Shown here: piece by piece, positions 30,238-55,900 of the stretch
How positions within the stretch are numbered: the stretch's first letter is position 1
How the letters are laid out: every line of letters begins with the position of its first letter
Assembly (NCBI GenBank): GCA_038380435.1
Contig: JAWZYU010000005.1
Span: forward strand, 41,562,001 to 41,626,000
Length of the DNA: 64,000 nt
Reading direction: 5' to 3'
DNA from: Ryuthela nishihirai
Lineage: Eukaryota > Arthropoda > Arachnida > Araneae > Heptathelidae
Notes under the pieces: generated by a model
Seen by the model: the letters and a program-made list of their open reading frames with translations, nothing else
Database searches by the model: none
What the model was told of the DNA's origin: nothing
Made by a program: the position numbers and the translations under genes

Positions 30238-30430
30238 TATCTACCATACCACAGACTTTGACACAGTTTCCTTGCTTCCTGTCTTTTACAGACTGATGAT
30301 GAACAGAAGAGTGAGTTTTGTGACCTCATTTTAATTATTAAGCATATTTTAATTGTATTCCCTTTACCCTCAAATGTTTTGACTTTCATAATTTTATGTT
30401 TATGTCTTAACACTTATTTTAACTAGTTGG
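30238..30430 (+). mobile_element. Decayed I-like fragment, right of Tc1
   Basis: GAGTTTTGTGACCTCATTTT at 30311 matches the terminal CCHC region of copy 1 near 6157. Together with 28590-28829 it is an I-like copy that lost its RT before or after the Tc1 insertion. Confidence 0.65.
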
Positions 30431-31258
30431 GCAATGCCAATTGTGCCCTGGAATAATTTGTCTCAAGAAGATCAGTTTTTTATCTAGATACTGGTTTTTT
30501 GAAAAGGGTTCACTTGAAAAGGTGTTTCCTGAAGTTCCTACCAGTATGGGTGACCTTAGCATTAGGAAAATGGGTCTTTGCACCATGTCTATGATTAGAG
30601 GGCAGTTTGATATTGTTGGCCCTATCTTTCCCAATAAACCTAGTTTCTTTAAAAATCCTACAAATCATTTTCTCTTTTCAGTTACATCGAACATGAGGAC
30701 ATTGCATAGAGATTATTCCTCTTGCCATCAGCACACAAGAATTCCGCTGTTTTATAACCTGGATATTCTTGGTTTGTAAGAGGCCAGATGGACAGATAAA
30801 GGTCAGCACTTAAAAATAATTTTTAATTTCTCTTTTCAGGGAGGAAGGATCATAAACATCCCCAAGATGTAGGTTTGCTTCTCAGTAGATATCTCAGTAA
30901 TGCTCTTCTAGAATATGACTGCATTAACAAAAGATTTCTTAGAGCTAAATTTAAAAGTAAAGACTGGAATGTTACCTGTTGTTATACTCCCACAGAAGAC
31001 TCTGATGATAATAAGAAAGATAGGTTTTACATACAACATAGGATATTTTGAAAATTCTGTTAAGAAACGAAACATTTCCCTTGTGCTAAGTGACTTCAGT
31101 GGTAAAGTTAGTACAGACTCTGACCTATGGGTGGGGGGGTGGGGGTGTTGACCTATGGGTGGGACCCTTTCACATTGGTAGTTCCAATGGCAATGGAGAA
31201 CGCCTTCTACAACAGGTAAGTAAACTTAATGGTTTGGGAATTTCATCAGGTGGTTATA

Positions 31259-32738
31259 CAGGGTGATTCAAAACTCTTGGGCCAAACTTTAAGGGGTGAT
31301 AGAACACACCTAAACAAGCACTTTTTGTCATACATGCAGGGTCGGAACTCAAGCAGTGAACGCTAGGGGTTAGCAGTTACTGTGTCAGGAAATGAAGAAA
31401 CACAAGAATGACAGAAGAGGTTTGAAACAATTGCAGAAATTACGGAACAGAAAGTACAGAATTTCATTGAAGAAATTACAGAAACTGCTCAAAAGAGCAA
31501 CTGCCAACATTAATGCAGGCTTCGCACCTTCGATGTAGTGATTGGTGTACATGGGCGAAAACACCGGGCATTTCTCGTACAGCGGCAGCAGCAATAGAAA
31601 TCCTGGCAACAAGGTCCTCATTGGAATCAATGGGGCTATCATAGATGAGACTTTTCATATGGCCCCATAGGAAAAAGTCCAGACATGAGAGATGGGGCGA
31701 TCGTGGCAGCCAAGCGATGGGACCACCCCGACCAATCCATCGTCATGGAAATGTTGCATCCAAGACGTTCCCACATCCATGCTGAAATGGGGTGGCGCTC
31801 CGTCATGTTGGAACCACATACGTGTTTGAACGTTTGCTGGAACAGGGTTCAGTAATTCTGGCAAACTTCTTGCAAAAATACCAGGTACATTCTCCCTTTC
31901 AGTCGGGCTGGCAGAAGGTATGGGCCAATCAAATGGTCATGGAAGATTCCAGCCCAAACATTTATGGAGAAACGTCACTGGTACAAATGTGGATGTATGG
32001 CATTCAGATTACTGGTAGCCCAGACAAGTGAATTGTGTATTAAAAATGCCCTCATAGTAAAAGGTGCATTTGTCAGTGAATAAGACGTGCATCAAAGTCC
32101 GGTTGTGCTACAGTCTGCTGTAGGAACCACTGTGCAAACGAGACCGATAATCTGCAGGTATCAAGGCATGCACCCTCTGTGCATGGTAGGGGTGTAATCG
32201 TTCGTCTTGTAGAACTCGCCACACCTTCGATTGAGGCACACTTACGGCATGGAAAATTGCTCGTGCTACATTCGGGACGATCTCCAACCCTACGTAGAAT
32301 TTCCTTTGTAACACATGGCATCCTCACACTCCTTGCATGCCCTATATCCTGCAAGCCGCTGACAAAGGAGCCCGTTTCGCACAGATACCGGTGCAAACGC
32401 TGAAAGGTTTTATGATCAGGCATGCGTCCGGTCAGAAAGTGCTCCCAGTACAGTCTTTGGGCTTCTCTCGCATTCCCGTCCACAGCTCCGTACGTGAAAT
32501 GCATGTCTGCCTTCTGATTCGTGAAACAATCCATCTCTTCTGCAATCCATAGTAGAAATGACGACGAGTGCAAAAACCAGAGCTTGTAAGTGTTCACTGG
32601 AAAGCACCTTCTAGCGCTTCACGCTTTGAGTTCCGACCATGCATTGTATGACGAAAAGTGCTTGGTTAGAGAAGGGAATTTTTTAGGAATTGCAAACATA
32701 ATTACCTTAGTTTGGCCCAAGAGTTTTGAATCATCCTG
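31259..32738 (-). mobile_element. Mariner-related transposon with near-perfect ends
   Basis: 1,480 bases flanked by TA (31257-31258, 32739-32740). The termini CAGGGTGATTCAAAACTCTT and CAGGATGATTCAAAACTCTT continue as GGGCCAAACT, giving 30-base inverted repeats with a single mismatch. It encodes a broken minus-strand transposase. It interrupts RTE copy B. Confidence 0.92.
31400..32597 (-). pseudogene. Transposase with DUF4817-type N-terminal domain, broken
   Basis: The 174-codon N-terminal frame (32597-32073) holds ADMHFTYGAVDGNAREAQRL and MPDHKTFQRLHRYLCETGSF, a helix-turn-helix module I recognise from arthropod mariner-related transposases (DUF4817 type). The C-terminal pieces at 31864-31476 give MWFQHDGAPPHFSMDVGT (second catalytic Asp), a CLDFFLWG-type block near 31670 and the tail MKSLIYDSPIDSNEDLVARI. 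Frameshifts separate them. Ends and frames are better kept than in other DNA transposons here, so the insertion is probably fairly young. Confidence 0.8.
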
Positions 32739-33760
32739 TATATTAACAGCAAATGGGCTAGTTCAGTTACGAATACCAGATCTTATAGGGAAATCCATAT
32801 TGGGTCTGACCCAATATGTGATCAAAACAACACGTGATAAAAAGTGTCTTACAACTGAAGCTTAAGAAATGTGTGCTAAGGTTAAGAGAATTTCCTTTAA
32901 CACTGAATCTCTGAAAAATCTAGATAGCCAAAGCATACCATGATCAGTTACTTAGTCATTATGACAGTTATGATTTGCTTAATACTGAAGTAGGGTGAAA
33001 ATGGGACTGTTTTAAGCAGGCTTTTCCTTGAACTAACAATATTCTTTTAAGTAAAAAGGAGTAGCAAGTAAGAAGAGGAAAAATTATTAGAGTGATAAGG
33101 CACTGGAGCTTGTTTTTGAAAGAAGGAACTGCAGGAATAATTTGAATCAGTACTCTAATAGTCCTCAGACAGCATTACAAAGAGCTTAATAAACAAGTAA
33201 AGGATCAGTTAACTGCTGATAAGAATCTTTGGCTTGATAGCTTGGCTGGCAAAGCGGAGGAAGTAGCTAAACAGATAATTAATGTTTTGTTTGGGAAGAA
33301 AAAGACAGGTAACAAGGATTGCAGAATAAATATGGTAAGACTGGTGAAGGTGAGGATTCTGTCATGGCTAGGTGTGTTCTAAACAATGTAGTTAATTCTG
33401 CTCCCGTTGTTTGTAATGAGGATAGATGCATTACAGGCTTTAATGTTGTCCTTATATCATAGTCTGAAGTTAATTTTGCTATTTCTAAACTTAAACTGCA
33501 TAAATCCCTAGGGGTAAATGAAATTACCATTGAAATGCCTAGTGCTGGGAATATTTCTGTTATCACATGGCTAATGATATCCTTATGATAAAGGCATTGT
33601 TCCTAAGGTTTTTTTTTACCAGAGCTATTATAATCACGAGTTTTTAAAAAAAGTGATCACAGTTTTTGTGATAACTACGGGGTGTCAGCCACTTCTGTCC
33701 CAGGTAAAGTTCTTTGCATAATTGTGCTTAATAGAATTAAGAATCTGGTTGATTGGCATT

Positions 33761-35246
33761 AAATAAAGTACACAGCTAATAGTATAACTATATTATCACG
33801 ATGTATGCTGTTCAATCAATTAGTAAAAACTCCTTATAACTCAAAATGTGAGGAGTGCAAAGTTGTTAAAATCCATCATGGGTTTTAATCCACAGTGTGA
33901 TAACTTATTGCAATAAATGTACCAACTTATTTCTTAGCTTAAATTCAAGTCATAAATATAGCATTATATATTTACAATGTATACTAGACAATAAAATTGC
34001 AAACATAATTACCTATATTTCATAGGCTGGTATATCTACTTGCTACTTTAGCACAATCTGATGTCACAAACACTTGCTCCATGCAATATGTCCAGAACTC
34101 TTGTGCACTTGCTAAGACTATTGTAGACATCTCATGTAGCCAAAGATGATGTTATGTAAAAAAAACCAGTCCTTGGAAGTTGTAGGCATGATGTTATATC
34201 GATATTCTTATCACTGATACAGTCATTAGATAGATAGATATATATATAACTGCATTAAAGTATACTGAATTTCTTCCTCTAACTGCAGTGTTTATGTTGT
34301 CAATTAAATTAATTTATTATGTCAATTTGCTATGACAATAACAAACATAAAAATTATTTGCTATGTCAATTTGCTATGATGATGCTGTAACATCCATTAC
34401 TTAACCAAGATCTTAAGTCAGAACAGTTTGAAGGTTAACACTGAATAATTATGTTGCAATTATTTATGCTATACTTTGGTGCAGAGTTCAGTTGTAGAAG
34501 AACTATTGCACTATCCTCATATTTTGCGTTTAGAGTTACTATTTTGAACAGTTAAAATCGTCTGAGTTTAAAATCTGTTAAAATATATTTACCAGTGCCA
34601 AGATGTCAATGGCTGTAACCATTACAGTACACCCGGGTCAGAACGAGCTATGTGTTTTACTGTTAATCAGTCATCACGGCATCCTCAGGCTCGGACAGTG
34701 TCGAGTGGCAAGTTGATGACTGATTAATTTGATGAGTGATTAACAGTTAGAGGAAGAAATTCAGTGTACTTTAATGCAGTATATATATATCTAATGACTG
34801 TATCAGTGATAAGAATATCGATATAACATCATGCCTACAACTTCCAAGGACTGGTTTCTTTACGTAACAGCATCTTTGGCTACATAAGATGTCTACAATA
34901 GGCTTAGAAAGTGCACCAAGACAAGAGTTTTGGACATATTGCATGGAGCAAGTGTTTGTGACATCATATTGTGCTAAAGTAGCAAGTAGATATACCAGCC
35001 TATGAAATATAGGTAATTATGTTTGCAATTTTATTGTCTAGTATACATTGTAAATATATAATACTATATTTATGACTTGAATTTAAGCTAAGAAATAAGT
35101 TGGTACATTTATTGCAATAAGTTATCACACTGTGGATTAAAATCCATGATGAATTTTAACAACTTTGCACTCCTCACATTTTGAGTTATAAGGAGTTTTT
35201 ACTAATTGATTTTATAGCATACATCATGATAATGTAGTTATGGTTT
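33761..35246. repeat. Long inverted repeat IR2
   Basis: Left arm 33761-34285, right arm 34744-35246, spacer of about 460 bases. The arms are near-identical inverted copies (for example TTAGTAAAAACTCCTTATAA at 33818 against its complement near 35205). The insertion splits RTE copy B; ATTGGCATT (33752-33760) and ATTGGCAATT (35247-35256) may be an imperfect target duplication. No ORF. The spacer holds a hammerhead-like motif; the layout parallels IR1. Confidence 0.85.
34644..34693 (-). ncRNA. Hammerhead-like motif in IR2 spacer
   Basis: Minus strand: CGAGC, then core CTGAGGA (fits CTGANGA), about 23 bases, AAAAC in place of GAAA, CACATA, then GCTCG. Stem I CGAGC/GCTCG is a perfect five-pair helix and ATA is an allowed cleavage triplet. 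Stem II is not clear and the G of GAAA is changed. The block GAGCCTGAGGATGCC is nearly the same as GAGCTTGAGGATGCC in IR1. Confidence 0.4.
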
Positions 35247-36094
35247 ATTGGCAATTGCAATATGAGCAATGTGGATTCAGAAGTGGTAGGGGATGTGTGG
35301 ATCAGATATTTTCACTTAGGTAGATTCTTGAGGAATGTTTAGACTTTCAGAATCCTTTGGTTGCTAGCTTTGTTGATTTCAAAAAGGCTTTCAATTCTGT
35401 TGATCGTCATAATTTGTGGTTGATTGTGAGATCTTATGGTATACCAGACAAGTTAGTTAACATAATGAAAGCTCTCTATAACACTGAGTCATGTGTGAGA
35501 GTTGGTAAGGCTTGTAGCAATTAGTTTAGCATTACTTCTGGTGTTCGGCAAGGGTATATTTTGTCTCATTTTCTTTTTAGTTTTGTTATTATGTTATTTG
35601 TAATTCTTTGCAAGTCCTTTTGGATAATTATATATTAGTAAATATGGTTATGAACAGCTTGCCTAAAGGCCTCAGGAAAAAGGGAGACCTAGGATGTGAT
35701 GGGCAGACAATATCAAACAGGACCTTATTAAAATTGGCCTACAATTGTCAAATGTAGCAGCTGTAGCTCACGACAAGCATGTTTGGAGAACAAAATTAGA
35801 CTGTCTGATTGAACCTCTATAGCCCATGACTGCATGTATGTATGCTTGAAGGATAAACATGAAAATTTATTTCTCAACGACAAAGAACTTTCAATTTTTC
35901 TAATTATTGTCTAAGCAAGAATGTCTTTTATTGTGTTTTTTGAAGTTTTATATATTATACTATTGTTTTTGTTTTATATAGGTTAATTTGTCTACCTTTA
36001 TTCTTCATATACATCTTTAATTTTGTCTTTTTCCTTTTTGTGCGTTGCTTTTAACTTTTGTTGAGGATGTCTGTGTATTTTATCTGTATATTTT

Positions 36095-36385
36095 TTACTG
36101 TATATCTTGTTTTTGGTACAGCATTTTAATTGTATTCAATATTTTACTTTATTTTTTAAATTCATACTTTTAATTATATGCATCTTATACACCCATTTTG
36201 TATTTTGCATTTGTTTATCATTTTATGTAATGTTTTTTATTCCCATTGTTATTGTTATACACTTTTATTCTTTGTGTCATTTATTGCTTTTATCCTTTGA
36301 TTTTAACTTTAGTTGTAGGTTTCCATGGCTTTAATGTATTTTTTCTCTGCACCTTGTTTGGTGCAACCCCAAACAATCTAGCTCC
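36095..36385 (+). mobile_element. 5'-truncated I-like 3' UTR
   Basis: Follows the 3' UTR of I-like copy 3 (CATCTTATACACCCATT, TTATACACTTTTATTCTTT, TTTAACTTTAGTTGTAGG, TTTGGTGCAACCCCAAACAA). Only the last 300 bases of the element are present. Small frames in it are chance. Confidence 0.65.
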
Positions 36386-36860
36386 TCAGCTCTGTCCGTA
36401 TTATGAAAGGAGACACCAAAGAGCTTGGAAAAGCCACTCTCTATTGGATAGGAAGTTAAGCTAAGACCCATATAAGGGTTAGACATACCATCTACACATT
36501 AGAAAACTTGTTGAATAGCTTTGAATGGGAGATTTTTATTTGTCTGTTAACCAGGGCCTTGCCTATCCAATTTTATGCCCTGGTAAGAATTATTTTGAAC
36601 CTATCAAAGAAATTATTTCCAGCCCATTATAATAAATATTGAGAAATGTAATAATTTGAAACTGCACCCAACATTTGATTTGCCACCTTAGCAGATGCCT
36701 TATTCATCCCTACCTTGGCACAGCCCTGATCTTAAGAACTGTCCAGTATACCCTTATCCTGTGACTAAATCTGCAAGCTTTATGTCTTGTGACCTGGTCA
36801 TTTAACCAATTGTGTGTACAAGAGGTCTGTAAATGGTAGCTGGGCATAAACTCGAAGGAG

Positions 36861-36940
36861 AGCTGTGTACCACAGTGATGATGCACTAAACTGGCCAGGT
36901 CTAGGGCCTAATGTTCGACCCCGCCTTCTCATGGTGCAGG
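36861..36940 (+). repeat. tRNA-like head of a short repeat
   Basis: A-box-like TACCACAGTGATG and B-box-like TGTTCGACCCCG about 45 bases apart. The stems do not fold as a tRNA, so probably a SINE head. It precedes RTE copy C. Confidence 0.4.
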
Positions 36941-36984
36941 CCGGTAGTACCTTTTAAAAGAGATATTCTCTTTTGGAAGGGAAT

Positions 36985-38423
36985 GGAATGGAAGAAGGGC
37001 TTCCAGTTCAGTATGGCATACTGATCTGGTCATCTATGGCCACTTTTTTCCTTTTTTTTTCTACCCTGCTGAGGAGTGGTCAACTTCACAGGGTACTGGT
37101 GCTAATCATTTATACCTACTATAGTGGACTTGTTTATGGATTTGAGCTTGATTATGGAATCTGGACTTGCTGCACTTGTGGGCCTCTGTTGAGGGAGGAT
37201 CTGCCTCTGTGTTTTCTGTTTGCTTCTGGGTTGCCAGTCTTAAGTGAACAGAAGCATGGAGTACATTATATCAGTTGGTGGATAATCCTGATCAGTGGCC
37301 ATCACAGGTACCTGAACCTCACTTAGCTAGTGGGGCATCATCAATCTTAAACTGGAGTAATGTGTCTCAGGCAGGCCATATGGCTCTTGAAAAAAGTCCA
37401 CTTGGAAAGGTGGTGCCTGAAGTTTCTACCAGCATTGGTGACTTCAGTGTTTAGTGGAGGAGGAACAGGTCTTTGCCCCATGCCTGTGATCAGGGGCTGT
37501 TTGATGTTGTTGGCCCTACATATCTCAATAAACCTAGTTTCTTTAAAAATCCTACTAATCATTTTCTCTCTGCAGGAACATTCCACATTCCTGCAGAGAC
37601 ATTGCATAGAGATTATTCTCTTAATGTCCTCACACAGGAATTCCACCACTATAACCTAGATATTCTAGGCTTGCAAGGGATGAATTGCAATGAATGGTTG
37701 ACGATGCTGGTAGGAATTGCACAGGAATATGACTGCATATTAATTAACAGCAAATGGACTAGTTGAGTTAGGAAAACCAGATCATGCAGGGAAGCTGAAA
37801 TTGGGTCTGACCATTACCTGGTTAAAAGTATCTTGCAGCTGAAGCTTAAGAAATGTTGTGCTAAGGTTAAGAAAATTACCTTCAACACTAAAGGTCTGAA
37901 AGATCCAGATATAACCAAAGCATACCATGATAGGCTACTTAGTCATTATGACAATCGTGGTTTGTTTGCTGCTGAAGTTGAGAGAGAATGGGATCAGTTT
38001 AAACAGGCTTTTCTTGAAACCAACAGTACTCTTTTGGGTAAAAGGTAACAGAGGAAACAAAATTATTTGAGTGATAAGGCTATGGAACTTATTTCTGAAA
38101 GAAGGAAGTGCAGGATTAATATAAATTAACTGTGTTGATTTATATTAATCCTGCACTTCCTTCTTTCTTTTCTTTCAGACTGTGTTGGATTGGCCATGTT
38201 GCCCGTATGCATAGCTTCAGATTGGCAAAAAGGTTTATGAACAATGTGCCTAAGGTTTTCAGAAAAATGGGGAGACCTAGGATGCAATGGGCAGACAATG
38301 TCAAACAGGACCTTGCTAGAATTGGCCTATAGTGGCCAAATGCAGCAGCAGTAACTCAGAAAAGACGTGTCTGGAGAGGAAGATCACAGTCTGAATGGAC
38401 CTCCGTAGGCAATGACTGCATGA
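36985..38423 (+). mobile_element. RTE-like LINE, copy C (internally deleted)
   Basis: The 5' part (36985-37330) aligns with the first 290 bases of copy D (43952-43680 on minus). The middle carries the endonuclease-RT linker (37730-38110). The RT core is missing. The 3' end (38170-38423) includes CWIGHVARMHSFRLAKR and RPRMQWADNVKQDLAR and ends at the TG-rich microsatellite, which probably grew from its simple 3' tail. Confidence 0.75.
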
Positions 38424-38442
38424 GGATGTATGTGTGTGTGTG

Positions 38443-38474
<32 letters not shown>

Positions 38475-38506
38475 TGCGTGTGCGCACGTGCATGCGTTCG
38501 TGCATG
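38424..38506. repeat. Microsatellite (TG)n / (TGCG)n
   Basis: Runs of TGTGTG followed by GCGTGCGTGCGTGCG. It directly follows the 3' end of RTE copy C. Confidence 0.9.
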
Positions 38507-38636
38507 CAATTATGAAACAGTTTAGAACTCTTTCAAATGAACATATGATTCTTTAATACTCACCTTATATCCGTAAATGTATAACTACAAAGAATAAACA
38601 ATATTAATTATGTGGGTTTTTTATTTTTTATTTTAG

Positions 38637-38684
38637 GCTGCTTTTTTTGTATCACTTGATGAAGAGTCTTACAACTTCGATCCT
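38637..38684 (+). CDS. CPT1: CPT1 internal exon 3 in window
   Basis: 48 bases between TTATTTTAG and GTAAGT, phase 0 at both ends, reading AAFFVSLDEESYNFDP. AAFFVxLDEE is the block that follows the NKxSLDAxEK segment in CPT1 proteins, some tens of residues ahead of the catalytic His in the next exons. It joins the exon ending at 26381 without a shift. The following exon is not in the window, so the next intron is longer than 25.3 kb. The gene reads in the same direction as the three I-like LINE copies. Confidence 0.93.
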
Positions 38685-39217
38685 GTAAGTAGCTTTGAAT
38701 GATTATGGAATTTTAACAAACATTTATTGTGTAAAAAATATTAAACTCTTAGAAATTCTGGCAGTGTTATCCAGTCTGACAGAGTGTGATTAGTATATAT
38801 TTTCTGCTGAGATAAATTATTTAATATTATTTTTACTAACTTTTCTTGCTAGTTCTTCATTTGAGATCTTTTCAACCCAATATATAAGCCATTGTTAGTA
38901 TGGTAAATTTTCGACAATTATTCTTCAGGAACAATCCTTAAGTGTTAAAAAAAGCCCTCAAGCATTTAAATGGATGATAACTGTTTCTGTTGAAAAATGG
39001 GGTTGAGATAAAGATGAAAACAGAGTTAAAAAAAGTACCACTTTCAACAAAACGTAATTTCTTCAGTCAACATACCTACATAAATGAAGGTTGTACCATG
39101 AATTAGGTATTAAGGTATCATGGGTAGAATATATTACAAGGTGAGCTGTGTTTGGTTGCTTTTTTTTCCGTAGAATGTTACAAGATTAGTAATTGTTACT
39201 GGTAATAATGGAGTGGT
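38685..39217. other. Intron, nothing recognised
   Basis: Strong donor GTAAGTAGC at the start. AT-rich, no repeat border seen. Confidence 0.45.
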
Positions 39218-39227
39218 GATTAAAAGT

Positions 39228-40707
39228 CTAACACATATTTCTAACACTTTTTACAAACACTGCAACATACATAAGTACACATGGATTTCACCTGATGGGC
39301 TGCATAAGAATATGATTGATCATATATTAATTAACAGCAAATGGACTAGTTCTGTTAGGAATACCAGGTCATATAGGGGAGTTGAAATTGGATCTGACCA
39401 TTATCTTGTTAAAAGAGGCTTGCAACTGAAACTGAAAAAGTGTTTTGCTAGGTTTAAAAATTTTACCTTTAATACTGAAGCTATGAAAGACCCAGTTACA
39501 GCTAAAGCTTACCATGATAGGTTACTTAGTCATTATGACAGTCATGGTTTGCTTACTACTGAAGTTGAGGAAGAATGGGGCTGTTTTAAACAGGCTTTTT
39601 TGGAAACTAACAGTACTCTTTTAGAAAAAAAAGGAGCTGATTATGCAGAATTATTTGAGTGATAAGGCATTTGAGCTTATTTCAGAAAAATGGAACTGCA
39701 GGAATGTCCTTAATCAATACCTTACTAGTCCTAATAGAAAGCATTACAGAGAACTTAATAAACGTGTAAAAAATCAGTTAGCAACTGATAAGAATTTTTG
39801 GATTGATGGCTTGGCTGACAAAGCCGAGGAAGCAGTTAGGCAGCACAACAGCAGAGAGCTGTACCAGATAGTTAATGTTTATGTGGTAGAAAACTGACAG
39901 GTATAGAGGGATTGAAGGATAAACAAGGTAAAGTTATAGAAGGTGAGGATTCTGTCATGACTAAGTGGGCTGAGCATTTCACTGATGTCCTAAACAATGT
40001 GGCTAGTTCTACTCCCACTGTTTGCAATAATGATAGATGCATTGGTGGCTTTAATATTGGCCCTATAACACAATCTGTAGTTATATTGGTTATTTCTAAA
40101 CTTAAACTTCATAAATCCCCAAGGGTAGATGAAATTACTACGGAAATGCTCAGAGCTGGGAATGTTTCGGTTACCACTTGTATTACCGAAATTTTGAATA
40201 TCTTTTATGATAAAGGCATGGTTCCTAAGGAATGATTGATAAACGTGTAAAAAATCAGTTAGCTGCTGATAAGAATCTTTGGATTAATGGCTTGGCTGAC
40301 AAAGCCGAGGAAGCAGTTAGGCAGCACAACAGCAGAGTTTTGCCATTATTATTATCCCTATTTTCAAAAATGGTGATTGCAGTTCTTGTGATAACTATAG
40401 GGGTATCAGCCTACTCTCTGTTTCAGGTAAAGTTCTTTCCATGATTGTGCTTAATAGAATTAAGAATCTGGTTGACAGTCAATTGCATGATGAGCAATGT
40501 GGATTCAGAAGTGGTAGGGGATGTGTGGATCAGATATTTTCACTTAGGCAGATTCTTGAGAAATGTTTAGAGTTTCAGAAACCTTTGGTTGCTAGCTTTG
40601 TTGATTTCAAAAAAGCTTTTGACTCTGTTGATCGTCATAATTTGTGGTTGATTGTGAGATCATATGGTATACCTGACAAGTTAGTTAACACAATGAAAGC
40701 TCTGTAT
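39228..40707 (+). mobile_element. RTE-like LINE, copy E/F, left half
   Basis: Starts inside the endonuclease domain (frame 39213-39662: MIDHILINSKWTSSVRNTRS, GSDHYLV) and runs into RT (39643-40790). It stops at AGCTCTGTAT (40698-40707), where copy D is inserted; the same copy resumes at 43963. TTAAAAGT at the left edge and TTAAAGGT after the 3' end (45195) may be its own target duplication. A block of about 105 bases at 39758-39858 recurs at 40229-40337, replacing RT sequence. Confidence 0.8.
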
Positions 40708-40709
40708 CA
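39303..40709 (+). pseudogene. Endonuclease end and RT start of RTE copy E/F
   Basis: Contains the last endonuclease motif GSDHYLVKR, the linker (KHYRELNKRVKNQLATDKNF, MTKWAEHFTDVLNN, SKLKLHKSPRVDEITTEML) and the first RT blocks (GFRSGRGCVDQIFSL, VDFKKAFDSVDRHNLW). Broken by a frameshift near 39660, one near 39895 and the duplicated block at 40229. The catalytic YADD lies beyond the copy D insertion, at about 44160. Confidence 0.8.
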
Positions 40710-43700
40710 TCGTCATCATCCTCAAGCAGCCATGGGCTATGGAGGTCCAACCACACCGTGCAATTTAGTTCTCCAAGCAAGTCTGTCTTGAGCTACATCT
40801 GCTGCATCTGACAACTGCACACCAATTCTAATAAGGTCCTGTTTGACATTGGCTGCCACCTCATCCTTGGTCTCCCCCTCTTTCTGAAGCCTTTAGGGAC
40901 ACTGTTCATAACCCTATTTGCCAATCTATAATTATCCATACAGACAACATGGCCAAACCAGTGGAGTCTCTCTCTGCACAATATGCTGCTTAAAAGAGGT
41001 TGCAGATTCCTTTGCCTAACCTCATCATTAGTTACAAAGTTGAACCACCTAATGCCCAAGATACTGCATAAGCATCTAGAATCAAAATCATCTAGTTTTC
41101 TGTTACCTTGTTTACAAAGTCCAAGTTTCACTGCCATAACTAACCCTAGAAAGAACCAACCTATTATACAGTCTAATTTTAATTTTCAGGTATATAGGCC
41201 TATTTCTCCACACTCTCCACAGATTCTTAAAAGTCCCGGCAGCAATCCCTATCCATCTCTTAATTTCACGCGGCACATCACCAGTGTCTGTTACATAGCT
41301 CCCAAGATAATTAAACTGCTCAAGACCGCAACCATTCAGATTAACTGAATCACAGCCTGCCAGACCAATTTTCATCACTTTAGTTTTCTTTCTCTTTATA
41401 ACCAAACCTACTCTACTACCAGTTTCATCAACAGCTCTAATGAAAGAGTTCATCTCATCAACATCATTTGCCAAAAGGGATAAATCATCAGCATAATCTA
41501 AATCAGAAATTTTCGTATCTCCAGCCCATTTAAGGCCAAAATCTTTCCCTTGAAGTGAATTTTGCATAACATAATCAATAACCAAACTAAAGAGAAAAGG
41601 AGACAAAAATGCACCCTTGTCGAACACCAGACGTAATGCTAAACCAATTGCTACAAGACTTACCAACTCTCACACGTGACTCAGTGTTATTATAGAGAGC
41701 TTTCATTATGTTAACTAACTTGTCAGGTATACCATACGATCCCACAATCAACCACAAATTATGACGATTAACAGAGTCGAAAGCCTTTTTGAAATCAACA
41801 AAGCTAGCAACCAAAGGTTTCTGAAACTCTAAACATTTCTCAAGATTATCCTTAAGTGAAAATATCTGATCCACACATCCCCTACCACTTCTGAATCCAC
41901 ATTGCTCATCATACAATTGCCTGTCAACCAGATTCTTAATTCTATTAAGCACAATCATGCAAAGAATTTTTTCTGGAACTGAGAGCAGGCTGATACCCTT
42001 ATAGTTATTACAAGAACTGCGATCACCTTTTTTGAAAATAGGGATAATAATAGCTCTGGTAAAATTTTCAGGAACCATGCCTTTATCATAAAAGATATTT
42101 AAAATTTCAGTCATCTAAGTGGTAACCGAAACATTCCCAGATCTGAGCATTTCTGTAGTAATTTCATCTGTCCCTTGGGATTTATGAAGTTTAAGTTTAG
42201 AAATAGCCAAAATAACTTCAGATTGTGTTATAAAGCCAACATTAAAGCTGCCAATGCATCTATCATCATTTCAAACAATGGGAGTAGAACTAACCACATT
42301 GTTTAGAACATCACTGAAATGCTCAGCCCACCTAGCCATGACAGAATCCGCACCTTCTATAACCTTACCTTGTTTATCCTTCAATTCCTGTATACCTGTT
42401 TGTTTTCTACCACACAAAACATTAACTATCTGGTACAGCTCTCTGCTGGTGTGATTCTTATCAGCAACTAACTGATCTTTTACACATAGAAAGCATTACA
42501 TAGAGCTTAATAATTAACTATTAGGACTAGTAGGGTATTGATTGAGGACATTTCTGCAGTTCTTTCTTTCTGAAATAAGCTCAAGTGCCTTATCACTCAC
42601 ATAATTCTGCCTCCTCTGCTCCTTTTTCCCTAAAAGAGTACTGTTAGTTTCCAAAAAAGCCTGTTTAAAACAGCCCATTCTTCCTCAACTTCAGTAGTAA
42701 GCAAACCATGACTGTCATAATGACTAAGTAACCTATCATGGTAAGCTTGAGCTGTAACTGGGTCTTTCATAGCTTCAGTATTAAAGGTAAAATTTTTAAA
42801 CCTAGCAAAACACTTTTTCAGTTTCAGTTGCAAGACTCTTTTAACAAGATAATGGTCAGATCCAATTTCAACTCCCCTATATGACCTGGTATTCCTAACA
42901 GAACTAGTCCATTTGCTGTTAATTAATATATGATCAATCATATTCTTATGCAGCCCATCAGGTGAAACCCATGTGTACTTATGTATGTCACGGTGTTTGT
43001 AATAAGTGTTAGTTATTCTGAAACCATTGAGTTTACTTACCTGTAGGAGACGTTACCCATTGCCATTTCAGCTACCAATACCAAAAGTGACTATCACCTC
43101 TCCCCAAAGGTCAGAGTCAGTACCAACTTTGGCATTGAAGTCACCAAGAACAAGAGTAATATCTCCTTTCTTGACAGAATTCAGAATATCCTGAAGTTGT
43201 CCGTAAAACCTATCCTTCTCATCGGCATCCTCAGTGGGGTATAACAGCAGATAACATTCAAGTTTGTAATGCTTGTCTGAAATTTTGCTGTAAGAAACCT
43301 TTCATTAATGCACTCGTATCCTAGAAGAGCATCACTAGCGTGTCTGCTGAGAAGCAGACCCATGCCTTGGTGATGTTTATTATTGTTCCTCCCTGAAAAG
43401 AGAAATTTAAGATTATTTTTAAAAATCTGATTTTTATCTGTTCATCTGGTCTTGCACGCCGAGAATATCTAAATTACAAAGATGGATTCTTGTGTGAGGA
43501 CATTAAGAGAATAAGCTCTGTGCAGAGTCCTCACATTCCAACTGCCTATGGAGAGAAAATGGTTAGTGGGATGTTTAAAGAAACTATGTTTATTGAGAGA
43601 GGGAATGCCGACAATATCAACAGCACCCTAATTGCAGACGTGGCAAAAACCCGTTCTCCTACCACTAAAGGCTGAAGCCAGCTACACTGGAAGACTTCCT

Positions 43701-43952
43701 CCAATGTTGAATTTGACAATGCCAGTAGAAGCAAAGAGTTCAGGTGCCTGTGATGACCTCTGCTCAGGATTATCCACCAGCTGATAAACATACCCTGTGA
43801 ATCTATTCACTTGTGGCTGTGAACCCACAAACAAACAGAAAACATAGCTGAAGATTTTCCCTCCACAGAAGCCCACTAGTGCAGCAAAATCAGGATCCAT
43901 AATCAAGCTCAGAGCCATAATTCTGTTCAGGTTTGTATATATGGTCAGCATC
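40708..43952 (-). mobile_element. RTE-like LINE, copy D (3.2 kb), nested in E/F
   Basis: 3,245 bases on minus, from TGATGCTGACC at 43952 to a GATGA-type tail at 40708. It is flanked by AGCTCTGTAT (40698-40707) and AGCTCTCTAT (43953-43962), 9 of 10 identical. Size and single-ORF layout match full RTE elements. It includes 5' coding sequence not seen in A and E/F (SLIMDPDFAALVGFCGG, 43900-43850). It is the least decayed RTE copy here. Confidence 0.88.
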
Positions 43953-43972
43953 AGCTCTCTATAATAACACAA
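40793..43972 (-). pseudogene. Endonuclease-RT of RTE copy D, broken
   Basis: Endonuclease pieces: RHASDALLGYECINERFLTA and NVICCYTP (43363-43181), MIDHILINSKWTSSVRNTRS and GSDHYLVKR (42941-42630). RT: 42114-41587 with IPIFKKGDRSSCNNYKGISL, GFRSGRGCVDQIFSL, VDFKKAFDSVNRHNLW, SGVRQGC; 41666-41112 with DYADDLSLLANDVDEMNSF; then 41137-40793 with FNFVTNDEVRQRNLQPL and WFGHVVCMDNYRLANRVM. At least four frameshifts or stops. The stop before MTEILNIFYD (42115) is also in copy A. Confidence 0.85.
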
Positions 43973-45192
43973 TCATGTGTGAGAGTTGGTAAGGCTTGTA
44001 GCAATTGGTTTAGCATTACTTCTGGTGTTCGACAAGGGTGCATTTTGTCTCCTTTTCTCTTTAGTTTAGTTATTGATTGTGTTATGCGAAATTCACTGCG
44101 AGGGAAAGATTTTGGCCCTGAATGGGCTGTAGATATGAAAATTTCTGATTTAGATTATGCTGATGATTTAGCCTTTTGGCAAATGATGTTGATGAGATGA
44201 ATTCTTTCATTCGAGCTGTTGATGAAACTGGTAGTAGAGTAGGTTTGATTATAAACAGAGAGAAAACTAAAATAATGTAAATTGGTCAGGCAAGCTGTGA
44301 TTCAGTTAATCTGAATGGCTGCAGTCTTTAGCAGGTGTCACAGTTAAATTATCTTGGGAGCTATATAACAGATGCTGGTGATGTGCTCATGAGATTAACA
44401 GACGAATAGGGATTGCTTCTGGGACTTTTAAGAATCTATGGAGAGTGTGGAGAAATAGGTGTATACACCTAAAGACTAAAATGAGACTGTATAATAGTTT
44501 GGTTCTTTCTAGGGTTATTTATGGTAGTGAAACTTGGACGCTGTGTAAACAAGATAACAGGAAGTCTAGGTGCTTTTGATTCCAGATGCTTACGCAGTAT
44601 CTTGAGTATTAGGTGGTTCAACTTTGTAAGTAATGATGAGGTTAGGCAAAGGAGTGGGCAACCTCCCTTAAGCAGCATATTATGCAGAGAGAGAGAGAGC
44701 CTAGATTCTTATGCAGCCCATCAGGTGAAACCCATGTGTACTTATGTATGTCACGGTGTTTGTAATAAGTGTTAGTTATTCTGAAACCATTGAGTTTACT
44801 TACCTGTAGGAGACGTTACCCATTGCCATTTCAGCTACCAATACCAAAAGTGACTATCACCTCACCCCAAAGGTCAGAGTCAGTACCAACTTTGGCATTG
44901 AAGTCACCAAGAAGTTAAAGAATAACAAAATTTTTTTTTTTTAGTTTGGCCATGTTGCCCATATGAATATAATTATAGATTGGCGAATAGGGTTATGAAC
45001 AGTGCACCTAAATTCCTCAGAAAGAAGGGGAGACCTAGGATGCGGGGGCAGACAGTGTCAAACAGGACCTTGTTAGAATTGGTGTGTAGTGGCCAGATGC
45101 AGTAGATGTAGCTCAGGACAGACTTGCTTGGAGAACTAAATCACGGTCTGGTTTGGTCCTCCGTAGCCCATGGCTGCTTGAGGATGATGATG
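43963..45192 (+). mobile_element. RTE-like LINE, copy E/F, right half
   Basis: Resumes exactly where the left half stopped: MRVGKACSNWFSITSGVRQG (43979), SDLDYADDLAF (44150), then frameshifted C-terminal sequence to GAGGATGATGATG at about 45192. A 209-base foreign patch interrupts it at 44705-44913. Confidence 0.85.
44705..44913 (-). repeat. 209-base copy of the copy D endonuclease region
   Basis: Nearly identical to 42942-43150 (I see one difference, CTCACC against CTCTCC) and in the same orientation as copy D. It contains neither end of the element. Confidence 0.9.
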
Positions 45193-45202
45193 AGTTAAAG
45201 GT

Positions 45203-46859: not shown

Positions 46860-47990
46860 TCTGGAGGGGGGTGGGGTGTAACTTTCACAGTGAGTTTAGC
46901 AGAAGGAATGCCTTCCTGAAATTGCCCTCCCACATTATGGCTGATTTCCTAGCAAGGAAGTCTATTTTGCTTCCATATCCAAGACATTCATATTCAGAAA
47001 ATAGTACAAGCTCAAAGTTTTTTTTACTAAAAACCAAGAAATAATAAGAGAAAAATTGCATATAACCTAATGGGATGTTAAATAAAATATCTGCAACAAG
47101 TTTTAAGCTGCCTCCAATATAGCATCAGAGGCTGGCTTAAAACTCAGAAAGATTGATAAATCAGTCTACCGAAAGATCGCTAACTAACAGAAATGCATAT
47201 GCTTCCATATCCAAGATCAAAGTTTTACTGGAAAAGTAATAAATAATAAAATAAAAATTAACACATAGCCTAATGGCGATGTTAAAATATCTACAGCAAC
47301 AAGTTAAAGGCAGGCCATCTGATGTAGGCATAACTATGAAAAATCAGTACTTATCAATCGGCTAAAAGGTCGCTAATTTCAGAAAATAAATCTGCTGAAA
47401 TGAAAACTAAGGTTTAAATATAAAAAAAAGTAAATAATAACTTTACAAAGGGTATCCAATAAGCTGGACCAAAACTGTAAACAACATTTATTGCACACAC
47501 AACGGATATTGCATGTGTCAGTCATCTGCGTCTTGTTTGTCTCAGTGAAGCATAAATAATTAAATGCAGCTGCAACCAGAATTTCTAAGAAGGATGTGTT
47601 TACTTCAAGTTTCGATTTTAAGAGTGGGATAGATGCGTAGAATGCTGGAAAAAATGATAAAAATAGTCTAGGAATGCTGAAATAGGTTTATGACAGAAAA
47701 GAGTGCGAAACAGAAAAAAAAATGGTGGTACATATTTTGTAATTACTTCCAAAATCTATTGTTTTTAAAAATAGCAGTTTTTTTTTTGTTTATTTATAGA
47801 TTTTCGAAAATTTAAGGAAAAATTTGTTGATAATAGTTCAAATCAACTTGTGAGCTTAAATCAGATTGCTTCAGCAAATAGGAACGTTAACAAGAAAATT
47901 GGCAATACCGTTTAGTGCTTCTAAGAAATGGCAATCAGATGGCTTTATAAAATTATTTATATTAATTAAATTATAATTTCACAGCAATGT
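46860..47990 (-). repeat. Second, inverted copy of the 15640-16930 repeat
   Basis: Reverse complement follows 15640-16930 across blocks such as ATGTGGGAGGGCAATTTCAG, GGTTATATGTTA-like, GTTATGCCTACATCAGATG and TTTTGGAAGTAATTA. The internal dimer is present here too (46985-47190 and 47190-47420). Confidence 0.65.
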
Positions 47991-48590
47991 AGTTAAAACA
48001 ATATTTAATACATGAATTATGCTGTTTAAAGGGAGTGAGCTTAGGAGCAATCACATATACACTTTGACTATCTCATGTATAGTCATTGCAATCTTTAAAA
48101 CGATAAAGGTTCAAAGTAATAGTCATAACATTACCAGTTTTCAAGGAAAGTCCTGCTGGCTACAACTGGTTAAGTGATATAATATGATCCATTTTGGTGC
48201 AGTCTTCATTAAAGATGCAGGCACACATAGATGTAATTGTAGAAGTGATCATAATAGTAGCACATATGCTGTATGTTCACAAGTATTAACGGTCAATGTA
48301 TACGTATAATACTCCAGATACCAGTCCAAAACTATGTTGATCTTAAAGATGGTATATTACAATTGTATTGGTGCTTGAAATTTTCAACAAACTCAATAAT
48401 GTGATGTACTTGAGCTCAGGAAGCAGTTCCATTTGTCAACGTCCAGTAAAATCGAGCTTCAAATTTATTTCCAGGTTTGCATCCCACAAACTCCATGAAC
48501 AAGCATACATCAGTGCAAGTTAAAAACAAATTTGTTTAAGCATTAAAACGTTTAAAATTTTATAGCCCGCTTTTCCCATATATCAACAGA

Positions 48591-48639
48591 TTTACGACAT
48601 GTTTCGTACCCGGACGCGTGCGGGACTTCATCAGGCAAA
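48591..48639 (-). ncRNA. Hammerhead ribozyme, IR3 left arm
   Basis: Minus strand: stem I TTTGC/GTAAA, core CTGATGA, stem II GTCCCG/CGGG-T-AC with one bulged T, GAAA, stem III AC/GT with a two-base loop, cleavage triplet GTC, predicted cut between 48596 and 48595. A very short stem III is typical of the minimal type I hammerheads reported in Penelope-like elements, which often work as dimers. An extra A lies between the core and stem II. Confidence 0.75.
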
Positions 48640-48681
48640 CTAGCAAGTAAGGTAGTAGGTATATATGAGAGCATTGCCCTA

Positions 48682-49070
48682 TCAGTGAGTTATCTGATTT
48701 GTTTGATGCTCGCACAACAGGAGATTCCATGCCGCCGGTAGGGGTGGAATGTCTGTGTTGCACAAGCGGTCCTTATTTAAATTAATGTAAATTTTTTCTG
48801 CATAATACAATTGATATTTATTTATTGGTGCTGTTAACGGTTTAAAATTTAAGTTACTAATCTGTAATTGATTTTGTTTTATAGTCTGTGCCAGAGCTGT
48901 ATTATCATTTCCTTTATTAATGTCAGATTGATGTTCCGACATACTTTGTTCGTATGACCGGAAAGTTTTACCAATATTTCCCCCCCCCCCCAATGTTTTA
49001 TTCTCATCAGGTATTTCAATTTCGTATACTCCCCCATTTACAATTGTAAATGACAGAGATAAACGGAAAC
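48682..49070 (-). pseudogene. PLE GIY-YIG endonuclease, left arm
   Basis: The minus-strand frame reads GGVYEIEIPDENKT (GIY half), a C-run-derived GGGGN, IGKTFRSYEQSMSEHQSDIN (YIG half and catalytic-region Arg/His), ALAQTIKQNQLQIS, YYAEKIYINLN with the conserved Glu, and ends LLLCEHQTNQITH before the stop at 48682. The Y of YIG is lost to the C-run. This is the endonuclease end of a Penelope-like RT-EN polyprotein. The part upstream of the GIY motif crosses the centre of symmetry and is not real PLE sequence. Confidence 0.8.
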
Positions 49071-49133
49071 CAATGGGGAGGAGTATAAAAAATTGAAATA
49101 CCTGATGAGAATAAAATACTGGGGGGAAAAAAT

Positions 49134-49433
49134 TTCTATATTGGTAAAACTTTCCAGTCATACGAACAACGTATGTCTGGACATCAATCTGACATTAATA
49201 AAGGAAATGATAATATAGCTCTGGCACAGGCTATAAAACAAAATCAATTAGAGATTAGTAACTTAAATTTTAAACCGTTAACAGCACCAATAAATAAATA
49301 TCAATTGCATTATGCAGAAAAAATTTACATTAACTTAAATAAGAACCGCTTGTGCAACATGGACATTCCACCCCTACCGGTGGCATGGAATCTCCTGTTG
49401 CGCGAGCATCAAACAAATCGGATAACTCACTGA
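49134..49433 (+). pseudogene. PLE GIY-YIG endonuclease, right arm
   Basis: Best preserved PLE frame in the window: FYIGKTFQSYEQ, RMSGHQSDINKGND, ALAQAIKQNQLEIS, PLTAPINKYQLHYAEKIYIN, LCNMDIPPLPVAWNLLLREH and QTNRITH, then the stop. The YIG motif is intact; the GIY half upstream is frameshifted (GRSIKN near 49080-49095). Followed 42 bases later by the hammerhead at 49476. RT is missing. Confidence 0.82.
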
Positions 49434-49475
49434 TAGGGCAATGCTCTCGTATATACCTACTACCTTACTTGCTAC

Positions 49476-49524
49476 TTTGCCTGATGAAGTCCCGCACGCA
49501 TCCGGGTACGAAACATGTCGTAAA
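49476..49524 (+). ncRNA. Hammerhead ribozyme, IR3 right arm
   Basis: Plus strand: TTTGC, CTGATGA, A, GTCCCG, loop, CGGGTAC, GAAAC, AT, GTC, GTAAA. Same fold as the left-arm copy, with one C-to-T-type change in the stem II loop (GCACGCATC against GCACGCGTC). All invariant core bases are present. Predicted cut between 49519 and 49520. Confidence 0.78.
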
Positions 49525-50366
49525 TCTGTTGATATATAGGAAAAGCGGGCCATAAACTTTTAACGTTTCTAATCTAATGCTTAAACAAATTTGTTTTTTT
49601 AACTTGCACTGATGTATGCTTGTTCATGGAGTTTGTGGGATGCAAACCTGGAAATAAATTTGAAGCTCCATTTTACTGGACGTTGACAAATGGAACTGCA
49701 TCCTGAGGTCAAGTACATCACATTATTGAGTTTGTTGAAAATTTCAAGCACCAATACCATTGAAATATACCATCTTTAAGATCAACATAGTTTTGGACTG
49801 ATATCTGGAGTAATACGTATACATCAACCGTTAATACTTGTGAACAGACAGCATATGTGCTACTATTATGATCACTTCTACAATTACATCTATGTGTGCC
49901 TGCATCTTTAATGAAGACTGCACCAAAATGGATCATATCACTTAATCAGCTGTTGCCAGCATGACTTTCCTTGATATATGGTAAAGGTTCAAAGTATTCA
50001 TGCATTACCATTTCAAAGTATCATAACATTGCCATTTTAAAGATTGCATTAAGTTTCGTCTACAATTGTAACAACTCTTACCGTGACTATACATGAGATA
50101 GTAAAAGTGTATATGTGATTGCTCCTAAGCTCACTCCCTTTATATGTATTATAGTTCAATAAAATGTGCATCAAATTAAAAAACAAAATATTATTTTTGA
50201 AGCCTGAATTATATATTTTAATAAGATATATATAAATAAATTACAACAGAAATTTTTATTTTTATAAAATCTTTTTTTTTGTATTAAAAACAGATACATA
50301 TGTCCTTAACCTCTCAATTCAGATTCTCCGAATGTATACAGACAACGTAGACACTGGAAGGATTAA

Positions 50367-50978: not shown

Positions 50979-51138
50979 TCATGGGCAAAGGCATCGATAT
51001 AAGTGAGTTTGACCATAACCAGATAGCAGGTGCAAGGAAGGCTGGTTGTTCAATTACCACAGCTGCTGAACTGTAGGGATTTCTGCGTCAGACAATCACA
51101 GGTGTATACGAAGATTATGTGAAATGCAGCAAATCCCT
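50979..51138 (+). pseudogene. Tc1 transposase N-terminus, split
   Basis: MGKGIDISEFDHNQIAGARK and AGCSITTAAEL, then a stop and GFLRQTITGVYEDYVKCSK. This is the first helix-turn-helix of a Tc1-type transposase. The frame continues at 56300 with KCGKTSSQQEKCGHKHAI after the LINE insertion; KCSK/KCGK is the duplicated target. Confidence 0.75.
51122..51138. repeat. Probable target duplication, I-like copy 3, left
   Basis: AAATGCAGCAAATCCCT against AAATGTGGCAAAACTTC at 56300-56316; about two thirds identical, consistent with an old insertion. Confidence 0.55.
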
Positions 51139-52997: not shown

Positions 52998-55900
52998 GTG
53001 ATTCCCCTCACCACAAACTTGGAGGCGGTTGCCATTCGCCTCTTTGTGGTATTTTCGTTGACTGTCTATTTACCACCCAGAAGCTTGGTCTTCCAGGATG
53101 ACCTTGATGACCTCATCTCGCAACTGCAGTCCCCCTTCCTCATCATGGGGACTTCAACGGACACAGTCCAATCTGGGGCAGTGCTGACATCAACAGGTGG
53201 GGCCACTGATCTCACCATCTACTTCTCATCGATCCTTCCACTCTTTACGTGGGAGGTTGAGGAAAATCCATATGGAAGCGATCACCTCCCCATGGTGTGC
53301 ACCACCTCATGTGGGGGGCCTTGCAGCCCTTCACATGTATTCCGGTGGAGGCTTGATCAGGCTGACTGGAGTGGCTTCAAGCTCTTGTCTGAGCTCGTTG
53401 AGCACTCTGTCAGCCAGTAGCCAATCAATGTAGCAATGGCAGAGATGATGTACTGCATCGTCCATGCAGCTGCCTCTACTATTCCTCAGAACTCGACTCG
53501 GTTTCCGCAGTTCCCCAAACCGTGGTGGAATCCTGACTGCACCACAGCTTGTAAGGCTCAGAACAAGGCTTGGGGGGTGTTTCGTAGATATCCAACCTTG
53601 AAAGCATTCAAACGCGCCAGGGTGAAAGCCCGTTTCATCCGGCTCTAGAGCCAGAAGGACTCTTGGATCAACTATACGTCTTCTATCACCTGCATGACCA
53701 GTTCTAAGGTCATGGGATGAGGTTCGGAAGATGGGTGGGAAGTACAAGTCCCACTCATTATTGATCCAGGCAATTGCTGATTCTCGAGTAATTGCTGACA
53801 CTCTGGGGAGTCATTCTCCTCCATCTCTTCTTTATCCTCCTACTCCCCCGAGTTTCTGGCCTAGAAGAGCAGGGCCGAATGCTCTTTGATGTCCTTCATT
53901 CAAATGGCCTGGAGTCCTACAACAGGCCATTCACAGCGGAGGAGCTTCATCTTACTCTGCACACTTCTCGTGCATCTGCCATCATGCCAGACAATGTCCA
54001 TTGTGCAATGCTCCAACATCTCTCACCATTGAGTAAGGATCTGCTGCTCTGACTCTTCAACTGCATTTTCATTGAGGAGCAGTTTCTGGACTCCTGTCAG
54101 GAGACAATCGTCTTGGCCTTCTCCAAGCCAGGGAAAGATTCCAAGATTCCTTCGAATTATTGTCCAATTGTGTTAATGAGCTGCACTGCAAGGTGTTGGA
54201 AAGAATGGTAAATACCAGGCTGACCTAGTATTTAGAACACCACGGCCTTCTTTCCAACACCCAGTGTGGCTTTCGCAGCCACAGGTCTACTTTAGACCAC
54301 CTGATCTGCCTCGAATTGGTGATCAGGAATTCCTTTTTATGTTGAGAGCATCTGGTGTTCATTTTCTTCGACATCAAAAAAGCATATGACATGGCATGGA
54401 GATTCGGCTTCTTTGTGACCTCCATAGCTTCGGCTTGCGAGGTCACATGCTAATCTTCATCGCCAATTTTCTATCTTCTTTTAATTTTAGAGTTCATGTT
54501 GACAACATTCTGCCCAGGACCTTTCCTCCAAGAACAGGGGGTGCCACAAGGCTGCATTCTGAGTGTTACACTTTTCGCTGTCAAGATAAATTCCATTTTG
54601 TGGCCACTTCCTTCTGTTCTTTCTTCTCTCTTCTTCCATTGCCAGTTCCTTCTCTTCTTTCTTCTCTCTTCTTCCTTCACCAGTTCCTTTTCTATGTTGA
54701 TGACTTGAGCATGTTTTGCTCATTGTCCAGCATGAGGGTCATTGAACAACAACTGAAAACTGCCCTTTCAGTTTGGGTGACAGCCAATGAGTTTTGGTTC
54801 TCCCCACAGAAGACCACTTCTGTGCACTTTTGCCGCAAGCATAATCTTCATCTGGACCCCAAGCTGCAGCTTGGGGATAACATCATTCCAGTTGTGGTGG
54901 ACACCGGTTTTTTTTATCTCATCTTTAACCAGAAATTGACCTTCTTGTCTCATATTTGACATCTCAGGTCCAAGTGAAGGTCCTCACCTTCCTTTCTTTG
55001 GGGGCGGACTGATGTTCTTTGCTCTGTCTCTACCGTGCACTTGTCCGGTCAAAACTGGACTTTAGATCCCAGGTGTATGACTCTACCTGGGATTCAGTGG
55101 TGAAGGTGCTAGACCCTCTACACATCAGGCCCTTTGTGTTTGCACAGGGGGCCTTCCACACTTTATCGGTCCAGAGTCTGTATCTAGAGATCGACGAGCC
55201 ATCATTATCTATTCAATGTCAGCAGTTGTCCCTACAGTACGCAGCAAAATTGTGATCCCTGCCTGGCCATCCCACTTGGGACTGCCTTTTCAGTCCCTGG
55301 TGGGAAATTTTATACCAGAATCAGCTGACTGCTATTTGTCCTTTCAGTTTGTGTGGCCAAGGTTTCCTGCGAGACATTAACACCAGTCTCGATAGCATCA
55401 CACAGTCGACAGCTGATCCACTTCCACCTTGGCTAACTGTTTCACCTTCCTGTGATTTATCTCTTTGCAGGACAGGGAAACCTTTACACCCAACTGTGTG
55501 TATCAGCAACTCTTTTCCAGCCATCGTGCTGCGCTCAGGAGCAATGACTTGACAGATGCTGCTGCCAGGTCAGCTGTGCCCTCTCCGACTCTCCGCTACC
55601 GGTTCCATACTTGGACTTCCGGCAGCTTTTTTCCATTGAGCTTCGGGCACAGTGGCAGAGATCTTGGTCTGAACAGGTTGGTAACAAGCTTTTCTAGATC
55701 AAGCCCATTGTCAAACTGTGGCGGTCTTGTTTTCACAGGAATCGTAAGGAGGAAGTTGTACTTGCTCGGCTCGCTTAGGTCTTTCGTATATTTCACATTC
55801 TTTTCTTATTCAGGCAGACGATGAACTTAAATGCGAGTTTTGTGAGACCATTTTAATTATTAAACAGATTTTAATCAATTGCCCAGTTTTTAACCTAGAC

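Follow-up and report, generated by a model that had tools for sequence, protein, structure and literature searches.

Opposed hammerhead motifs, probably inactive, in a palindromic insertion of likely Penelope-like ancestry in a probable CPT1 intron of Ryuthela nishihirai

The locus and its palindrome

The window analysed here is a stretch of 64 000 nucleotides of contig JAWZYU010000005.1 from the spider R. nishihirai (assembly GCA_038380435.1). CPT1 is a gene of fat metabolism, and two of its exons were found on the + strand by means of a CPT1A probe: one at 13256-13339 (57% identity over 28 aa, E = 4e-5) and the next at 26304-26384 (59% identity over 27 aa, E = 5e-6), both with AG/GT borders. 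With twelve other probe segments, the window yielded nothing better than E = 0.1. A large palindrome, the subject of this analysis, probably lies within a sense-strand CPT1 intron of more than 37 kb that follows exon 26304-26384 and has its far end beyond the window. The first-pass annotation of this DNA had placed the locus in a CPT1 intron with the right-hand of two hammerhead copies in the sense strand, and the two upstream + strand exons agree with this. Beyond the palindrome, 52998-53420 holds a LINE-type endonuclease fragment (PF14529, Exo_endo_phos_2; E = 0.00045, under the curated cut-off), and 50980-51110 resembles by eye the start of a Tc1-type transposase, interrupted by stops.

An inverted repeat had been noticed in the first pass and is indeed present, but it is longer than was given then, extending over 2.1 kb (48027-50142). 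Its main blocks are 94-98% complementary, the exceptions being one 53-nt block (85%) and a 50-nt block adjoining the centre (90%); aligned with their indels, the arms are 86-87% alike overall. The left arm (48027-49035, - strand), delimited by inverted repeats I1-I6 and by alignment, comprises what appears to be the 3' end of a Penelope-like element (PLE) and ∼540 bp of other DNA; the right arm, delimited by inverted repeats and alignment, lies at 49077-50142 (+). Two features mark the junction (49032-49078): an 18-bp palindrome without mismatch (49035-49052), and CCCCATT/AATGGGG (49032-49038 and 49072-49078), 7 bp that are complementary across a 33-nt loop. Beside the left arm, a stretch of 62 nt (47965-48026) is unmirrored and has no counterpart on the right.

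The palindrome sits inside one copy (46873-47964 with 50140-50235) of an older interspersed repeat, another copy of which occupies 15581-16945 in the opposite orientation; the two are 74-77% alike. At 15581-16040 (-) the paralogous repeat lacks the insertion, and it aligns with the left flank until 47964 and with the right flank from 50140. These two alignments overlap by 12 bp, which points to a probable 12-bp target-site duplication flanking the palindrome: the left copy, TTATTTATATTA (47953-47964, +), equals the paralog at 12 of 12 positions, and the right copy, TTATATGTATTA (50140-50151, +), overlaps the arm end with its first 3 bases and shares 10 of 12 bases with the left one. PLEs typically show a short target duplication and inverted or tandem pLTRs; here, inverted ends are present in addition to this overlap. 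The unmirrored 62 nt matched the paralogous site only weakly (best E = 0.17), and looser scoring carries the flank alignment across them at low identity; the target duplication of ∼70-80 bp that would follow from the loose alignment was rejected, since by eye its two sides appear to have diverged much further than the arms have. At E ≤ 1e-3 the window held no further copy of the arms. Two further large palindromes are present, at 24176-25773 and 33784-35241, with arms of ∼700 and ∼500 bp that are 92-94% alike, and a comparison of the three palindromes at E ≤ 1e-3 found no sequence in common. The region 26646-45196 is dense in mutual inverted repeats, with identities from ∼69 to 94%.

When one arm was compared with the other, 22 of 418 sites differed in the PLE-like parts (49135-49553), 16 of them by transitions and 8 at CpG; in the outer parts the figure was 10 of 399, with 3 transitions and 1 difference at CpG. 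These counts leave out the positions before 49135, 49554-49600 and 49941-50083, where a G-run or numerous indels occur and where identity, as far as measured, is 73-85%. Within an 86-codon frame that the arms share, the differences are distributed 5, 5 and 3 by codon position and, few as they are, give no sign of constraint at the protein level. The pattern suggests neutral decay following a single duplication, with the reserve that the numbers are small.

Hammerhead motifs and their predicted folding

Each arm carries one hammerhead motif, recognized by pattern and by a stem test, at 49481-49519 (+) and 48596-48634 (-); in both, the core is accompanied by stems I and II, while stem III is almost lacking. 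In the right copy, which with its stems spans 49476-49524 (+), the parts from 5' to 3' are stem I, TTTGC/GTAAA (49476-49480/49520-49524; 5 pairs, one of them G-T), CTGATGA, an extra A (49488), stem II, GTCCCG/CGGG-T-AC (49489-49494/49503-49509; 6 pairs with one bulged T, T49507), GAAAC, AT and GTC. The cut is predicted at 49519/49520, and for the left copy at 48596/48595 in - strand RNA. The parts of a type I hammerhead core (CUGANGA, GAA(A) and UH at the cut site) are all present, with one extra A after CUGAUGA, which makes the core not quite consensus. In stem III, ACATGT (49513-49518) is its own reverse complement; as a monomer this stem would have one pair and a 4-nt loop, or two pairs and a 2-nt loop, and is too short to close. 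Stem I and the one-bulge stem II, as drawn in the first pass, were borne out by the stem test; its description of a complete core in both arms holds for the places, the strands, GAAA and GTC, but needs correction for the extra A and for a stem III of one or two pairs. Since both motifs lie in the arms of one inverted repeat and are equal at 48 of 49 positions (1 difference), they are copies of one motif, and constitute one observation rather than two independent finds.

The bare core pattern has 3 matches in the whole window, where 100 shuffles gave an expectation of 0.18. The third of these matches (15254-15293, -) failed the stem test, which demanded at least 4 pairs in stem I, at least 4 in stem II, where one bulge was tolerated, and the two positions that close stem III. 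Core plus stems also gave 3 matches, namely both arm copies and an A/T-rich variant at 39030-39066 (-), compared with 14 matches in 13 of 300 first-order Markov windows. The core and stem counts both exceed expectation, and therefore the motifs are unlikely to be there by chance. The variant at 39030-39066 (-) is a weak hammerhead-like sequence that passes a loose stem test, and is probably due to chance; neither it nor the match at 15254 (-) is related in sequence to the palindrome copies.

A covariance-model match, which the first pass had proposed as a check, was absent, and by that standard the result tells against the motif. Rfam at gathering score gave 0 matches in the whole window; at E ≤ 10 there were 0 matches in 49440-49560, and 18 below gathering score in 48500-49600, with no hammerhead among them. 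All 18 were rejected: they were mostly microRNA models on the palindrome centre, the others being of snoRNA, idnO and RUF1 type. The Rfam hammerhead models describe ordinary hammerheads and are not known to have been built for minimal PLE forms, so this null result speaks only weakly against such a form. Work by Cervera and De la Pena in 2014 and by Lunse, Weinberg and Breaker in 2017 reportedly deals with minimal type I hammerheads of PLEs. That these form a known class, as the first pass had it, accords with PMC6155905, PMC7229834 and PMC7761336. We conclude that the hammerhead motif is probably genuine and of a known kind, and that the putative ribozyme is probably inactive.

As an isolated 49-mer, the hammerhead has a minimum-energy fold of -9.2 kcal/mol, which has stem II in full and four of the five pairs of stem I, and in which ATG of the core pairs with CAT; by themselves, stems I and II contribute -6.5. 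The right copy in a 121-nt context had a stem I probability of 0.01-0.02, and its hammerhead fold lay 3.7 kcal/mol above the minimum (-14.7 versus -18.4); for the left copy in its own context these values were 0.11-0.13 and 2.6 (-18.8 versus -21.4). In the minimum-energy fold of a 2.1-kb + strand transcript, 48 of the 49 nt of the right hammerhead are paired with the left arm, and imposing stems I and II with five pairs apiece raises the energy by 82 kcal/mol (-1566.0 to -1483.8). Thermodynamic folding ignores co-transcriptional kinetics and proteins; the left-arm complement is transcribed first, so that zipping can follow the polymerase.

Within the palindrome, tandem same-sense copies of the PLE hammerhead are absent, as there is one copy per strand. 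The double-hammerhead mechanism requires two tandem same-sense copies (PMC6466107 and PMC7761336), and eukaryotic double hammerheads are stated to require a palindromic stem III loop as well as tandem copies (PMC6466107). According to PMC11167929, the hammerhead of PAc, the Poseidon element of Anolis carolinensis, showed no cutting without its protein, and no reads ended at its site; the same text mentions earlier work on self-cleavage of PLE hammerheads at 3-25 mM Mg2+. The claim of the first pass that transcription in either direction gives one active-sense copy stands insofar as each direction has one sense copy, but the placement appears to hinder activity rather than favour it, the complement lying upstream, 48 of 49 nt being paired in the predicted fold and a tandem partner missing. 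Because of the arm pairing, the single copy per strand and the protein need of PAc, inactivity is the best guess; on these predictions the hammerheads are most likely inert passengers in the CPT1 intron.

The Penelope-like parts and their borders

Upstream of the hammerhead, each arm has an open frame that resembles the C-terminal part of an endonuclease. In the left arm it lies at 48682-49041 (-) and was recognized as an ORF with GVY...NIG...E...N by eye and by alignment with the right arm, where the frame occupies 49173-49433 (+; 86 aa, 88% identical to the left). The stop codon, TGA, is 47 nt upstream of the hammerhead core in both arms, close to the ∼40 bases between a GIY-YIG endonuclease stop and the core given in the first pass. 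The motifs of the left frame (GVY...NIG...EKIYI...N) are GIY-YIG-like by eye, but this assignment was left unconfirmed by four approaches. The frames of both arms gave one Pfam match at E ≤ 10 (SBP_bac_6, E = 0.051, under its cut-off), PDB sequences gave 2 matches (E = 0.39 and 1.8), and a protein database search with the endonuclease fragment gave 4 candidates, none at E ≤ 0.001; AlphaFold, given the 119-residue left frame and, in a second row, the right arm, produced an uninformative model (mean pLDDT 38.4). A scan of a few chosen frames showed nothing of the reverse transcriptase of a PLE, and the arms end within the endonuclease-like part. A short open frame starts at an ATG inside the core (49484-49555, +) and runs for 23 codons before a TAA.

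Downstream of the hammerhead, arm identity falls to 85% with 7 gap columns at 49554-49600. The PLE-like part has observed-to-expected CpG values of 0.91 and 0.90, compared with 0.35 and 0.39 outside it (flanks 0.60 and 0.34), a contrast that is not significant when set against GpC (p = 0.17 and 0.11). In PAc the ORF begins at hammerhead stem II and reverse transcription starts 111-118 bp into the ORF (PMC11167929), and in Pen2a of Adineta vaga the pLTR with tail includes the first 22 amino acids (PMC3846280). By analogy with these two elements, the PLE 3' end would probably fall between about 49550 and 49602. Outside the PLE-like parts, ∼540 bp of CpG-poor DNA are mirrored at 49601-50139 and 48030-48526. 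Because the identity drop and the CpG change are found at the expected PLE end, these ∼540 bp per arm are probably not PLE, and they are the one feature that our best explanation cannot fully account for. The layout supports, by analogy, a minimal PLE-type hammerhead at a PLE 3' end, and we infer a PLE origin for the arms.

Origin of the insertion and comparison with known systems

The overall reading that we favour, and consider quite likely, is that the insertion consists of two head-to-head, 5'-truncated PLE 3' ends, now decayed, with inert hammerheads. In each arm, the minimal hammerhead of the element would follow the last part of an endonuclease gene. The literature describes intact PLEs as having tandem same-sense hammerheads, which cut as a double hammerhead via a self-complementary stem III, or are helped by the element's protein. 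The CPT1 pre-mRNA would contain one sense copy, that of the right arm, whose complement in the left arm would be transcribed ∼850 nt earlier; this copy would be locked in a long hairpin and would find no same-sense partner from the palindrome. As to how the arms arose, we infer a snap-back with the left arm first: the left arm would represent the initial cDNA strand, whose end turned back at CCCCATT/AATGGGG, and copying of this strand would have yielded the slightly shorter right arm. The asymmetries described above, such as the unmirrored 62 nt, fit this model; PMC3846280 favours self-priming on an antisense template. Against the favoured reading stand the Rfam, Pfam, PDB-sequence and protein-database searches, none of which supports a hammerhead or a PLE endonuclease, the uninformative AlphaFold model, the lack of a reverse-transcriptase part in the few frames scanned and the 2 of 12 bases at which the right target-site copy departs from the left. 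A plain snap-back of a PLE cDNA would also leave unexplained the ∼540 bp that lie past the predicted PLE 3' end.

These outer ∼540 bp, symmetric outside the PLE-like parts and CpG-poor (0.35 and 0.39 against 0.91 and 0.90), would suit a palindromic non-autonomous transposon family, of the foldback type or with long terminal inverted repeats, that has taken up a PLE 3' end and transposes as a whole, and so would the two more large palindromes at 24176-25773 and 33784-35241. We regard such a family as unlikely, though worth keeping in mind, given that the three palindromes have no common sequence and the arms no second copy in the window (both at E ≤ 1e-3), that the CpG contrast is non-significant against GpC and that 62 nt at the left end are unmirrored. 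A long shot is that the palindrome is composite, with ∼540 bp of foreign DNA carried in mirrored form by PLE machinery, and that outward RNAs from between the arms each bear a free hammerhead, able to cut in trans as ACAUGU dimers; if true, this would be a two-way, ribozyme-tipped mobile palindrome. The artefact reading, by which the repeat arose by fold-back in assembly or library, as inverted repeats can, seems to us next to negligible: the arms differ at 22 of 418 PLE-like and 10 of 399 outer sites (8 and 1 at CpG) and by indels, and the flanks match the unfilled paralog.

Should the motif be a working intronic ribozyme, it would cut the CPT1 pre-mRNA at 49519/49520 and tune expression. Its sense orientation in the intron, the equality of the arms at 48 of 49 positions, the fold of the isolated 49-mer with stems I and II, the intronic hammerheads of amniotes (PMC6155905) and the remark on cutting with Mg2+ (PMC11167929) all speak for this, but an arm divergence of ∼5% predicts 2 to 3 differences in 49 nt, and the 1 found is no sign of constraint. 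The extra core A, the almost missing stem III, the lack of a tandem partner and the upstream complement in the same RNA weigh further against it, as does PAc, uncut without its protein and with no reads ending at its site (PMC11167929), and we consider a working ribozyme very unlikely. If a whole-palindrome transcript were cut all the same, a minimal PLE hammerhead would escape the long hairpin as a monomer, contrary to the dimer and protein-assistance models. That repeat DNA merely looks hammerhead-like by chance is, in our view, highly improbable. Such a resemblance would agree with the missing covariance-model match and with the occurrence of the pattern CTGATGA...CGAAACATGTCGTA in two bacterial genes reading as DnaG primase, where it is necessarily there by chance; those two matches, however, come from a scan of 257 billion bases (size as given in the tool description), core and all three stems occurred only 14 times in 300 simulated windows, and the site after an endonuclease-like stop, together with the self-complementary ACATGT, fits PLE hammerheads. 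In bacterial and archaeal genomes the pattern gave no loci but these 2, each within a gene whose translation reads as DnaG primase. Hammerhead patterns gave 0 stretches in viral contigs; a search for related loci in viral contigs gave 7 stretches, none confirmed, and a search of plasmids had no match.

A decayed pair of head-to-head PLE 3' ends has close parallels. The head-to-head placement was offered as a novelty in the first pass, but PLE copies of this kind with junction palindromes are already described as the most frequent form of Penelope in Adineta vaga (PMC3846280). The inverted pair, the inward 5' truncation, the junction palindrome and the probable short target duplication are alike in that case (PMC3846280), whereas the ∼540 bp of additional DNA that flank either PLE-like part on its outer side are peculiar to the present locus; hammerheads have 0 occurrences in the text of PMC3846280. 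For the combined point, that opposed hammerheads are expected to silence each other, no paper was found in the accessible portions of the open-access literature.

With the known class of PLE minimal type I hammerheads, the motif shares the CUGAUGA/GAAAC/GUC core, the very short palindromic stem III and the location at the 3' end of the element; it differs by the extra A after CUGAUGA and by copies that are inverted, not tandem, so that no double hammerhead can form in one RNA. An extra core A is presumably also found in the hammerhead of chrysanthemum chlorotic mottle viroid. It was not seen in the available part of PMC3185496. As in PAc, the hammerhead overlaps the start of an ORF, but the PAc start codon comes after C3 and G8 (PMC11167929), whereas here the ATG is within the core and the frame stops after 23 codons. 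The hammerheads of RECK, CTCL and DTNB in amniotes are intronic like the present one (PMC6155905); those are conserved and thought to be domesticated, whereas here the motif belongs to what looks like a decaying transposon fragment. The locus would thus be a further example of the PLE-type ribozymes scattered in animal introns, in an inverted arrangement that is expected to silence them.
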